From: an uncultured Flavobacteriales bacterium
GTDB taxonomy: Bacteria; Bacteroidota; Bacteroidia; Flavobacteriales_D; Crocinitomicaceae
DNA length: 64,000 nt
Assembly (NCBI GenBank): GCA_903945495.1
Contig: CAJAVU010000021.1
Span: 335,594-399,593 of the forward strand
Direction of reading: 5' to 3'
A model generated the notes under the pieces. The model did no database searches. It worked only from the letters and a program-made list of their open reading frames with translations, and was not told the origin of the DNA. How positions within the stretch are numbered: the first letter of the stretch is position 1; each line of letters begins with the position of its first letter. The position numbers and the translations under genes are program-made. Of this stretch, positions 18,518 through 21,767 are shown piece after piece.

Positions 18518-18636
18518 GACGCTAATTTTTTTGCAAATATCGTTATTTCTGCCGTATAACTTTTGATAATCCAGGATAAAAATCCCTAAGTCCAATATGT
18601 CTTCCAGTTCATTGTCTTTTGTCCTTCGTCTTTCCG

Positions 18637-18687
18637 TCCTAACATCTTAAAGTCCTAAAGTCTTAATATCCTAAAGTCCTAATATCC
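18637..18687. repeat. Degenerate 8-nt tandem array overlapping the yqaA stop
   Basis: Six units plus a partial, in register: TCCTAACA, TCTTAAAG, TCCTAAAG, TCTTAATA, TCCTAAAG, TCCTAATA, TCC. The array runs into the 3' end of the YqaA-like gene, encoding its last residues and stop. The same octad class occurs in other spacers of this window. Confidence 0.8.
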
Positions 18688-19099
18688 AAATCAAAACAGC
18701 ATACCGCAACACTTTCCCCAACACCATCAAACCAAAGAAGCGCCAGAACGAAACCCTGAAATAGCCGAGTGCCACTGAAAGCGGATCACCAATAAACGGC
18801 ACCCACGAGAAAAAGGCCAACCAATAACCATAAGTATGAATGCGATGTTCGAAAGAACGAATTTTCATGTGACTGATGCCGATGCGTTTGAGCCAATTGG
18901 GATTCCCGAGCAAACCGAGCGCATAATTCGTTAAACCACCGAGTGAATTTCCAATGCTCGCAACGAGTAAACAGAGCGTTGGGTCATATCCCTGCGTAAG
19001 CATTAAGAGTAGAATTCCTTCCGAACTCAATGGCAGAATCGTTGCCGAAAGAAAACTGGCAAAAAACAATCCTACATAACCCGCGGTGAAATACTCCAT
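18671..19099 (-). CDS. YqaA/DedA-family (VTT domain) membrane protein
   Basis: 142 residues from the ATG (the track's first codon is a TTG one codon earlier). Several hydrophobic helices and the conserved SNARE-associated/VTT features: SFLSATILPLSSEG near the N-terminus (re-entrant loop), the GNSLGGLTNYALGLL motif, and SWVPFIGDPLSVALGYFR. These match YqaA-type small DedA proteins, which are implicated in lipid scrambling or membrane homeostasis. The last residues and stop are formed by the octanucleotide repeat array. A TATCTTTG box sits 4 nt before the ATG. Confidence 0.85.
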   Translation of the reverse strand: MEYFTAGYVGLFFASFLSATILPLSSEGILLLMLTQGYDPTLCLLVASIGNSLGGLTNYALGLLGNPNWLKRIGISHMKIRSFEHRIHTYGYWLAFFSWVPFIGDPLSVALGYFRVSFWRFFGLMVLGKVLRYAVLIWILGL

Positions 19100-19111: not shown

Positions 19112-19120
19112 GGTTTAAAT

Positions 19121-19635
19121 AAAGAAAGTGCCTTGTGTTTCCTAGTAATTCCCTTCCGCGAAACTCTGCGAAATCAGCGGGAGAATTAGGATATTGGTGT
19201 TTTGGTTTCCCACAGATTACGCAGAAAACCGCAGATTGGTATTTTTCAATATCCACTACGAACCTTTGCGCTCTTTGCCCCTCTCACTTCGTGGCTGCTC
19301 CGCGGTGCGTTAAAGAAAGTGTTCTACATCCGGAAAATTCGGACAAATGGAATCTAGAATCAACAAAGTTGATGAGCAACCCTTGTGTCTACATCCAGCA
19401 CATCCATTTGTGAACTCCGTGCCTTTGTGGTGAAATAAAAAAGTGCTTAGTGTTTCCAAGTTTTTTGCCTTTCAGCGAAACTCAGCGAAATCAGCGGGAG
19501 ATTTAGTTATGGTTGTTTTAGTTTCCCAACATGAATGACAAGTCGCATTAAAATCAACTTGTTGATGCGCAACCATTGTGACAACATCCAGCACATCCTC
19601 TTTTGAACTCCGTGCCTCTGTGGTGAAAAAAAAAT
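19121..19635. repeat. Composite intergenic repeat (A-x-B-A'-B' layout)
   Basis: This stretch has no credible gene. Two modules occur twice. Module A (about 19121-19213 and 19437-19530) shares GCGAAA-CTC-GCGAAATCAGCGGGAG. Module B (about 19358-19439 and 19551-19634) shares CATCCAGCACATCC and GAACTCCGTGCCT-TGTGGTGAA. Between the first A and B lies a unique insert with other short periodic words (CACAGATTACGCAGAAAA, CCTTTGCGCTCTTTGC). Copies are diverged, about four in five bases by eye. Short ORFs here are repeat-derived. Confidence 0.8.
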
Positions 19636-19642
19636 CTAAGAC

Positions 19643-19678
19643 ACAAAAAAACCGTCCCTCTTGCGAAGAACGGTTTTC
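19643..19678 (-). terminator. Intrinsic terminator of the 667-residue T9SS gene
   Basis: On the minus strand AAAACCGT / ACGGTTTT forms a stem with an inner CTTCGCAAG hairpin, followed by a run of T, 18 nt after the stop codon. Confidence 0.85.
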
Positions 19679-19695
19679 CAATCTATAATCAAAAA

Positions 19696-21693
19696 TTATT
19701 TTTTGATGAATTTTTGTGTTGCAACTGAGTTATCAGTGTTAATGTTCACATAGTAAACACCACTTGACAAGTTAGAAGCATCAAAAGAAGTTTTTTGCGT
19801 TCCAGCTGTTAAGTTGTTTTCAGTTACAGTTGAAATTACTTTTCCTGTTACGTCAACAATTTGGATAGTTACTGTTGCATCATTTTTCAATGAGTAAACA
19901 ACTGTTGTTTCACCTGATGTTGGATTTGGAGCAATAGTTCCTACTGTTACATCTGAAGATAATTCATTCACATTCAATGATTGGTTCAAGTTCAATTCAG
20001 TAACTACTTGAGTTCCCATTGTAAACCAGTTGTTTCCTGGAGTTGAACCGAAATCACCAAATACGTGTGTTGAAGCGTCATCATCAAATGGGTTTTCTAA
20101 GTAACAGAAGTGATTAGCCTCACCACCATCGTGTTGAATCAATGCTAAGTAGTAGTTACCTGCTAACAAAGTTGGTATTGAAGATGGTCCAGATGCTGCT
20201 TGGTGGAAATTCAAAGTAACATCTTTAGAACTGTTGTTTGAAGAAGGATACATTGCAGAAGTGATAGGGAAATACCAGTCACCAGCTTCAACGATATGTG
20301 CATCAGCAAATGTTGTAGCATTCGTGAAGTCAACCAAATACAAAGCAACGTACAATTCACTTCCAACTGTTGTTGGGTAATTTGTTGAACGACCAACTTT
20401 CAAGTTGATTCCGTGTAAGTCAGCATCTGTAGGGATGAAGAATACAGATCCTAAGCCCATAAATGCACTTGACGTTGCTGTAGCACCCAGGTCTTTACCG
20501 ATACTTCCGAAGTACAATGGTTGTTGTAAGTCTGTTTGACCATAAACACCATCCGTAATTTTAAATGTACGTGTGAAATCATTATCAGCTGTATTTTCAT
20601 CAACTTCTGTCATACCTATAGTATAAGCTACAGTGTATGTACCAGCAGCGAACGCAGACATGTCAATTGTTGTTGCGAATGTAATTGTATCCGCTTCTAA
20701 ACTGAAGTCATTTGTTAAAACACCACCTGTTTCAGTAACGTTTACTCCTCCAGGACCTGTAACTGTAACAGTTAATGCAGTGTTTGTTGGAGTTAATTTA
20801 CCTAAGTTTTTAACTTTTGCTTGAACAGTTAAGTTTCCTGCGAATACAGTTGGAATACTTGTGTATTCATAACCAGCAGCGATATCACCTAACCATGCAT
20901 CAACTAATTCTAAGTTGTAATTAGGTTTCTCATAGATTTGAATATCATCAATCAACCAGAAATAATGTGTATTAGCTTGACCATTTTGATCTGTATTAAC
21001 ACCATCCCAAATGAATTTCACTTTAGATGTTGCAGACAATGTCAATGCATAAGGAGTTAAATCAATTGATACATCCATTGGTTGTACAATGTCTTCAGTT
21101 GGTTGATTTCTATCAACACCTAAATCAACTGGAATTGGAGCAGACCAAGTTGTTCCGTTATCTTCTGATACAGCAATAGCGAAAGGAATTTCTGTTGCAT
21201 TACAACAGTACATTGCTTCCGTTTTGAACGTCATTACAATTCCGTTTGTACCAGTTGAAAAGTCAATTGTTGGAGAAACTACCTCTCCATCAACTGGTGT
21301 AGAAGCGAAGTCTACTTCAGTTGGGTAAAGTGGTCCAAATGAATTCCAAGTCAAGAAACGACCTGTTAAGTTATCAGTGTAACCATATGCACTCATCGGG
21401 TGAGTAGAACCTAATGTCCAGTAAACTCCTGGGTTACCAACTGCAGAATAAACTCCGTTTGGCGTTGTCATTGCTGTTGTTCCACTGAAATCTTCAGTCC
21501 ATAATACGTTTAATGCTTTTTCAGCTTCTTCTTTTTGTGCTGGAGTAGAAGGTTTTACAGCAACAACAGAAGGTTGAGTTTTCGGAGTTGTGATTTTACC
21601 ATCAACACCGAAATTGTACTCTTTTGTTAAGTTTTGCCCCAAAGCCGTTGCACAAAGTGCCAAGGAAGCAATCGAAAAGTATACTTTTTTCAT
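19696..21693 (-). CDS. T9SS type A secreted protein, adhesin-like
   Basis: 665 residues from the second in-frame ATG (MKKVYFSIASLALCATALGQ, a clear signal peptide). Residues about 65-260 look like a MAM/cleaved-adhesin jelly-roll (HYFWLIDDIQIYEKP at its end). A CARDB-like Ig domain with LTVQAKVKNLGKLTPTNTAL follows (about 265-380), then a further beta domain. The protein ends in a type A sorting domain starting IAPNPTSGETTVVYSL (about 590-665, ending TQKFIKK). It should be secreted and anchored or released through T9SS. No catalytic motif seen; surface adhesin or structural role inferred. Confidence 0.88.
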   Translation of the reverse strand: MKKVYFSIASLALCATALGQNLTKEYNFGVDGKITTPKTQPSVVAVKPSTPAQKEEAEKALNVLWTEDFSGTTAMTTPNGVYSAVGNPGVYWTLGSTHPMSAYGYTDNLTGRFLTWNSFGPLYPTEVDFASTPVDGEVVSPTIDFSTGTNGIVMTFKTEAMYCCNATEIPFAIAVSEDNGTTWSAPIPVDLGVDRNQPTEDIVQPMDVSIDLTPYALTLSATSKVKFIWDGVNTDQNGQANTHYFWLIDDIQIYEKPNYNLELVDAWLGDIAAGYEYTSIPTVFAGNLTVQAKVKNLGKLTPTNTALTVTVTGPGGVNVTETGGVLTNDFSLEADTITFATTIDMSAFAAGTYTVAYTIGMTEVDENTADNDFTRTFKITDGVYGQTDLQQPLYFGSIGKDLGATATSSAFMGLGSVFFIPTDADLHGINLKVGRSTNYPTTVGSELYVALYLVDFTNATTFADAHIVEAGDWYFPITSAMYPSSNNSSKDVTLNFHQAASGPSSIPTLLAGNYYLALIQHDGGEANHFCYLENPFDDDASTHVFGDFGSTPGNNWFTMGTQVVTELNLNQSLNVNELSSDVTVGTIAPNPTSGETTVVYSLKNDATVTIQIVDVTGKVISTVTENNLTAGTQKTSFDASNLSSGVYYVNINTDNSVATQKFIKK

Positions 21694-21767
21694 AATCATG
21701 ATTATTTTAGATTAACAAATATAAACCATTTATAGTAATATTGATTCACCACTTAACTATTTAACTA

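Follow-up and report, generated by a model that had tools for sequence, protein, structure and literature searches.

Between two genes of an uncultured Flavobacteriales bacterium lies an intergenic stretch built of short periodic words (positions 19121-19635 of the window, i.e., the whole 64,000-nt stretch of DNA that was analyzed), which raises the question of how such a composite came to stand there and what, if anything, spreads and maintains chains of this kind.

Duplicated modules in an inserted composite

Self-comparison of the window delineates two copies of a module A (19151-19189 and 19468-19506; 39 nt, 90% identity) and two of a module B (19368-19441 and 19561-19634; 74 nt, 88% identity), placed along the locus in the order A-x-B-A'-B'. 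A sequence-only reading of this DNA had described a composite of diverged modules in just this order, and self-comparison confirms both points. Beyond A and B, the only other direct repeats between 18900 and 19900 are one 19-nt and one 16-nt match. The features of the locus are as follows.

19117-19636, no strand: inserted word-chain composite, with borders taken from empty orthologous junctions and approximate to a few nt
19157-19184, minus strand: module A copy 1, reverse arm CGCGAAACTCTGCGAAATCAGCGGGAGA, from self-comparison and relatives
19206-19239, plus strand: module A copy 1, forward arm TTTCCCACAGATTACGCAGAAAACCGCAGATTGG, pairing with the reverse arm at 19157-19184
19263-19313, minus strand: chain x CCTTTGCGCTCTTTGCCCCTCTCACTTCGTGGCTGCTCCGCGGTGCGTTAA, a reverse chain with head GGTGCGTTAA, from dispersed copies
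19368-19441, minus strand: module B copy 1, with reverse chain CTCCGTGCCTTTGTGGTGAA at its right end
19468-19506, minus strand: module A copy 2, reverse arm only
19561-19634, minus strand: module B copy 2, resembling the right half of the gene-less unit L003
18671-19102, minus strand: flanking gene for a putative membrane protein, left border of the junction
19696-21699, minus strand: flanking gene for a probable secreted protein

The periodicity of 9-10 nt given in the sequence-only reading holds in kind, with the words of the repeat family as a whole (CRCNRAG) spaced by 8-10 nt (mode 9), and a word it had listed separately is in fact the second, inverted arm of module A (19206-19239). The module A word pattern CTSNGCGAAATCWGCGGG, allowing up to 3 mismatches, is found 4 times in the window versus 0.18 expected, with none of 100 shuffles reaching 4; three of the four matches fall inside the locus. 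Neither are the modules unique to this place, since a search of the genome (3.64 Mb in 114 contigs) yields 7 further, weaker matches to the locus outside it. The chain pattern CACCRCRGAGNNRCRGAG, with 2 mismatches, matches the genome 21 times versus 3 for its backward control. Chain x has copies at C44, C45 and C112 of this genome, the last adjoining a GxxExxY gene, as well as in the relative G304, and ATCAACTTGTTGAT, which stands just ahead of module B copy 2, is common to the 3' flank of the GxxExxY element L009.

Folding, which had been proposed as a check, favors one module only: the two-armed module A hairpin unit folds well (z -4.05), whereas no better folding than in shuffles is seen for module B (z about 0) or for all 515 nt together (z +0.37). 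An RNA element spanning the entire region is unsupported at that last value; Rfam covariance models gave no match in the window at gathering cut-offs, and a plasmid DNA similarity search gave none either.

The orthologous junction between the membrane-protein and secreted-protein genes measures 49-73 bp in eight congeners, including a terminator-like hairpin, versus 593 bp in this genome (G000). Here, the hairpin lies at ~19649-19681, adjoining the stop of the 19696-21699 gene, and it is what stays in the empty sites. The composite is thus inserted DNA. In the nearest relative, G304, the same junction holds 519 bp of a different word-chain mixture between flanks that are 83-93% identical. Because the congeners are empty and the composites of G000 and G304 differ, word chains at this junction appear to build up and turn over fast.

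This bears on the origin proposed in the sequence-only reading, i.e., repeated duplication of one larger unit, such that local tandem duplication of A-B would have built the region. Both modules do recur with their order kept, along with a lead-in (AAAGTGCxTxGTGTTTCC), and one local A-B duplication in the window may therefore still have taken place, at most as a late local step. As the main origin, we hold it to be very improbable: the spacing between copies differs (317 for A versus 193 for B), the modules are separable, each with its own relatives, and G304 has another composite at the junction where eight congeners have none. Module A is found alone, in arrays of 9-12 copies and as solo copies, and a sequence similar to module B forms the right end of a gene-less unit at another locus of the genome. 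The explanation that we favor instead, and consider fairly probable, is that the locus is a graveyard of inserted chain elements, spread in trans by a lineage-matched GxxExxY nuclease.

Inverted chains around GxxExxY genes

This genome has three GxxExxY genes (TIGR04256 / PF13366, above the curated cut-off), none of them in the window, which contains gene-less pieces only. Inverted chains enclose two of the three on both sides, the words differing from gene to gene (CACAAAG, CACAGAT); at the third (CACATAAG), one flank carries strong chains and the opposite flank a weak trace. When genome contigs were scanned, 80 GxxExxY relatives from many phyla came up, and their flanks follow one plan: a chain of ACC-CACAGAG type before the gene and its reverse complement after. 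The claim of the sequence-only reading that similar word chains occur in unrelated bacteria is thereby borne out.

Among 106 usable GxxExxY loci, a forward chain lies within 300 bp upstream in 72, a reverse chain lies downstream in 64, and both are present in 54, versus 16 and 17 for chains in the wrong orientation. Words reach a density of 1.4 per 100 bp adjoining the gene versus ~0.02 beyond 500 bp, and unbiased 7-mer enrichment at the flanks returns CACAGAG (62-fold), CACGGAG (38-fold) and CGCAGAG (36-fold). At loci titled as lying outside Bacteroidota (n = 27, three of them of unnamed phylum), the chain is found upstream in 21, downstream in 19 and on both sides in 18. Left and right arms of one element are more alike (23.7) than arms of different elements (13.3). 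Counting against the favored explanation, about a third of gene flanks have no recognized chain on one or both sides. In-frame stop codons interrupt the matched stretch in 7 of 74 contig loci checked, so some copies have probably decayed.

At L041, L045, L050, L053, L077, L085 and L086, the GxxExxY match contains one or two in-frame stops with the chains still there, and some of these stops come only at the very end. At L033, a Chitinophagaceae contig, a tandem chain unit (ACCGCAAGGTGCGCAAGG...CTTTGCGGTTAA) runs from position 1323, directly downstream of the GxxExxY gene.

Co-occurrence was scored across 297 genomes of the phylum, the gene being counted as GxxExxY above cut-off and the chain as a strict three-word pattern, whose backward control gives only a handful of matches. 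The gene is found in 149 genomes and the chain in 98; 91 have both, 58 the gene only, 7 the chain only and 141 neither (p = 1.5e-27; odds ratio 32), and all 27 genomes with at least 10 chain matches carry the gene. Stratification by family leaves 85 genomes with both versus 71.6 expected, reached in 0 of 20,000 within-family permutations (Mantel-Haenszel odds ratio 21). We regard the association of chains with GxxExxY genes as practically certain. Speaking against the favored explanation are the 58 of 149 gene-bearing genomes in which the strict pattern is absent, as well as the 7 genomes with chain matches but no gene, one of which has five.

The same genome set bears on whether RAYT (Y1) transposases move the chains, which would then be ordinary REP/REPIN sequences. 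REPINs, too, form inverted hairpin doublets and lie in intergenic arrays, and RAYTs are widespread in this phylum, being found in 210 of 297 genomes; however, none of 20 Y1_Tnp loci has a chain within 700 bp, RAYT is absent from 8 of the 98 chain-bearing genomes and, in genomes without GxxExxY, it is no predictor of chains (odds ratio 1.1). By inspection of the units read, their ends show no GTAG or CGTC tag. We therefore give this explanation next to no credence, and RAYT as mobilizer of the chains was dropped on the flank counts and that odds ratio.

Lineage-matched words and gene-less units

Module A can be followed to one GxxExxY lineage. In the sister species G298, it forms tandem arrays of 9 and 12 copies with a unit of 108-109 bp, accompanied by two solo copies that are 89-90% identical over 84 nt. 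Module A copy 1 of the window matches L198 over 84 nt (90% identity) and the tandem units in L193, L194 and L284 at 72-79%. One G298 array begins directly upstream of a GxxExxY gene (C123), and module A units likewise precede the G304 orthologue of that gene (C16; 83% over 144 aa, 87% over 110 aa). In G000, the orthologous junction lacks the gene and is occupied by the gene-less composite L003. Since the arrays adjoin the gene in G298 and G304 and the gene is absent from G000, this genome has probably lost the gene of the lineage to which module A belongs, leaving the module orphaned; its upkeep here is probably over, with the lineage's gene surviving in two sister species. The right half of L003 resembles module B of the window (74% over 78 nt). 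L003 also has short stretches in common with the GxxExxY element L009, those of the left arm exceeding all 300 shuffles and those of the right arm being reached by 2 of 300.

The G298 arrays (L193 658-1679, L194 387-1695 and L284 from ~1911) are made of 108-109 bp hairpin units and show a higher-order period of ~431-435 bp, equal to four units.

In this genus, words track protein lineage, as seen for GCCACAGATGCACAGAT around L010 and CCACAGATGCACAGAT around L290 at another site, and for ACATA words around L011, L289, L287 and L288. Between genomes, word flavor correlates with protein lineage in a Mantel test (r 0.50, p 0.0002), also with same-site orthologues left out (r 0.35, p 0.0002); the flavor lineages were grouped from the same data (18 elements), and the Mantel test is independent of that grouping. 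GxxExxY proteins paired within the same genome (15 pairs) share no more than 54% identity, with the best match in another genome at 61-90%. No recent within-genome duplication of a gene-bearing element was seen among these, and self-mobility of the gene is thus unsupported. RAYT genes likewise have their nearest relatives in other genomes and are divergent within a genome (PMC3116915).

Units without a gene are the form that multiplies. Those of G250 form near-perfect hairpins, heads outward, with arms identical over up to 40 nt, and fold very strongly (z -13 to -18). Arms are more similar within a unit (28.9) than between units (14.8), and their identity extends past the words into unit-specific sequence, which suggests that one arm serves as the template of the other, in the manner of hairpin template switching. 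Heads are ACC, CCC or GCC in the units inspected. Solo copies of module A have their heads inside, versus heads out in most units, which counts against the favored explanation.

At L249-L252, the perfect inverted arms go on outside the chain into unit-specific AT-rich DNA (e.g., AGATTTTATTGAACC), as though flanking DNA had been copied in inverted orientation.

Such arms could be taken to mean that no enzyme is needed, i.e., that replication slippage and hairpin template switching suffice to create and alter the chains and would also keep arms alike. Perfect arms running beyond the words into unit-specific sequence and the tandem arrays of 108-109 bp are as this would have it, but it leaves unexplained why the same words occur across phyla, why they are positioned around one gene family, and why there are empty sites with target duplication. 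We deem it improbable as a full account; the mechanism may well include a template-switching step.

Gene-bearing insertions are seen in Chryseobacterium. In many species, the site is empty, and the stop of a permease gene and the start of a thioesterase gene overlap (GAAAGAAAACAAAATGCAGTCTAAAG); in others, chain-GxxExxY-chain lies between two copies of this permease/thioesterase junction. The filled site of L222 reads AAAGAAAACAAAATGCAGT / TTAACCAC ... GTGGTTAAAA / AAGAAAATAAAAATGCAGTC, its target duplication being imperfect (AAAGAAAACAAAATGCAGT on the left, AAAGAAAATAAAAATGCAGT on the right), so that the length of roughly 17-20 bp is an estimate. No chain stands in the empty site, where the gene is missing as well, and the duplicated target sequence is external to the chains. 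A tree of 38 Chryseobacterium loci requires at least 5 state changes on well-supported branches; this patchiness may reflect repeated gain, precise loss or interspecies recombination, the last of which could account for part of it, a point against the favored explanation.

These sites weigh on a further possibility: that the chains, as hairpin repeats of the host or of selfish nature, have a role or origin of their own, and that the GxxExxY gene is a guest that inserts into or captures them. It would suit the very strong folding of the units and the great excess of gene-less units over genes (G184 has 36 chain matches and 1 gene). Nevertheless, we find it unlikely, given a Chryseobacterium empty site without a chain, a target duplication that falls outside the chains, chains that are nearly confined to gene-bearing genomes, and flavors that follow the lineage of the gene.

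A candidate nuclease and its parallels

The favored explanation places a GxxExxY nuclease at the center. The genes in full-length elements belong, above the curated cut-off, to TIGR04256 / PF13366 (PDDEXK_3). Their 126-aa protein has D67, E77 and K79 invariant in 36 sequences, with E27 of the GxxExxY motif conserved. In its structure model (pLDDT 95), an alpha-beta core and a D...ExK active site point to a PD-(D/E)XK nuclease, and Foldseek gives Cas4, lambda exonuclease and AdnB as the nearest solved folds. By sequence, the PDB has no match; PHROGs gives only weak ones, including one to a family labeled 'CRISPR/Cas system associated'. Of 72,556 plasmids, 8 carry GxxExxY, and a phage search yielded none, so it does not appear to be mainly phage or plasmid cargo.

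The element is an inverted chain pair, each chain with a head (ACC/CCC/GCC) followed by CRCNRAG-like words at intervals of 8-10 nt, close to a helical turn. It can fold into a hairpin, either in an empty form of ~60-110 bp or enclosing one GxxExxY gene. The nuclease would recognize chains of its lineage, the likely form being a cruciform or a folded single strand, and cut them, such that host repair copies units to new places and into tandem arrays. This action in trans may be likened to that of RAYT transposases, which are thought to act on REPINs. In the genomes compared, gene-less units do multiply and the gene stays single-copy per lineage. We judge a causal role of the nuclease in moving or maintaining chains to be rather likely. 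The broader proposition has, in our estimate, slightly less than an even chance: that a minimal Cas4-like nuclease, without a transposase or recombinase of its own, maintains and spreads lineage-specific chains via host repair, and so underlies most intergenic chains of CACAGAG/CTCTGTG type across phyla.

Several known systems offer parallels. With REPIN-RAYT (PMC3116915), the chains have in common inverted hairpin doublets, an intergenic position, arrays, repeats flanking a single-copy gene, gene lineages paired with their own repeats, and multiplying gene-less units. Here, however, the gene appears to encode a PD-(D/E)XK nuclease rather than an HUH/Y1 transposase, and arms are periodic word chains, whereas REPs are palindromes with a GTAG or CGTC tag. 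The chain system thus works like REPIN-RAYT yet is not one, as its flanks lack the transposase that defines REPIN-RAYT. MITEs and insertion sequences likewise have terminal inverted repeats, gene-bearing and gene-less forms, empty sites and target duplication; the system described here differs in having no DDE or serine/tyrosine recombinase, in arms that vary between units and match within them, in an imperfect duplication of ~17-20 bp, and in showing no recent within-genome copies of the gene form. The predicted fold and active-site residues resemble those of nucleases of the Cas4, lambda-exonuclease and AdnB type, but GxxExxY is only 126 aa long and, in the alignment of 36 sequences, has no Cas4 iron-sulfur cysteine set, only C33 being nearly invariant.

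Searches by repeat letters, family accession and description, with subscription papers and preprints outside their scope, found no paper tying GxxExxY to chains and no published description of the combined system. A report on TAACTGA direct repeats (7 nt; Beggiatoaceae, Cyanobacteria and Bacteroidetes) gives their origin as unexplained (PMC4679880). As described there, these resemble the chains as short intergenic words common to distant phyla, but are direct repeats of another sequence, and inverted arms are not their pattern. Class 4 of the Geobacter 'multicopy sequences' was dismissed as prior art, its repeat being CCYTC. CACAGAG-type chains, present in many phyla and without a named maker in the literature searched, now have a likely and testable one, and a candidate function is offered for GxxExxY, a widespread family named only by its motif. 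If true, REPIN-like repeat populations would have evolved with a second, unrelated kind of enzyme.

Other repeats occur in this genome as well. In the window, a second, different chain (TCCTAAAGTCTTAATATCCTAAAGTCCTAATATCC), with words every 9-10 nt, occupies ~18598-18690, in the gap before the 18671-19102 gene, and matches dozens of places in most congeners. Another dispersed intergenic family, AAAAAGTAAGCACCACGCAGTAGCAGCG, is present in the same genome at L023 (C54), L028 (C17) and L031 (C92).
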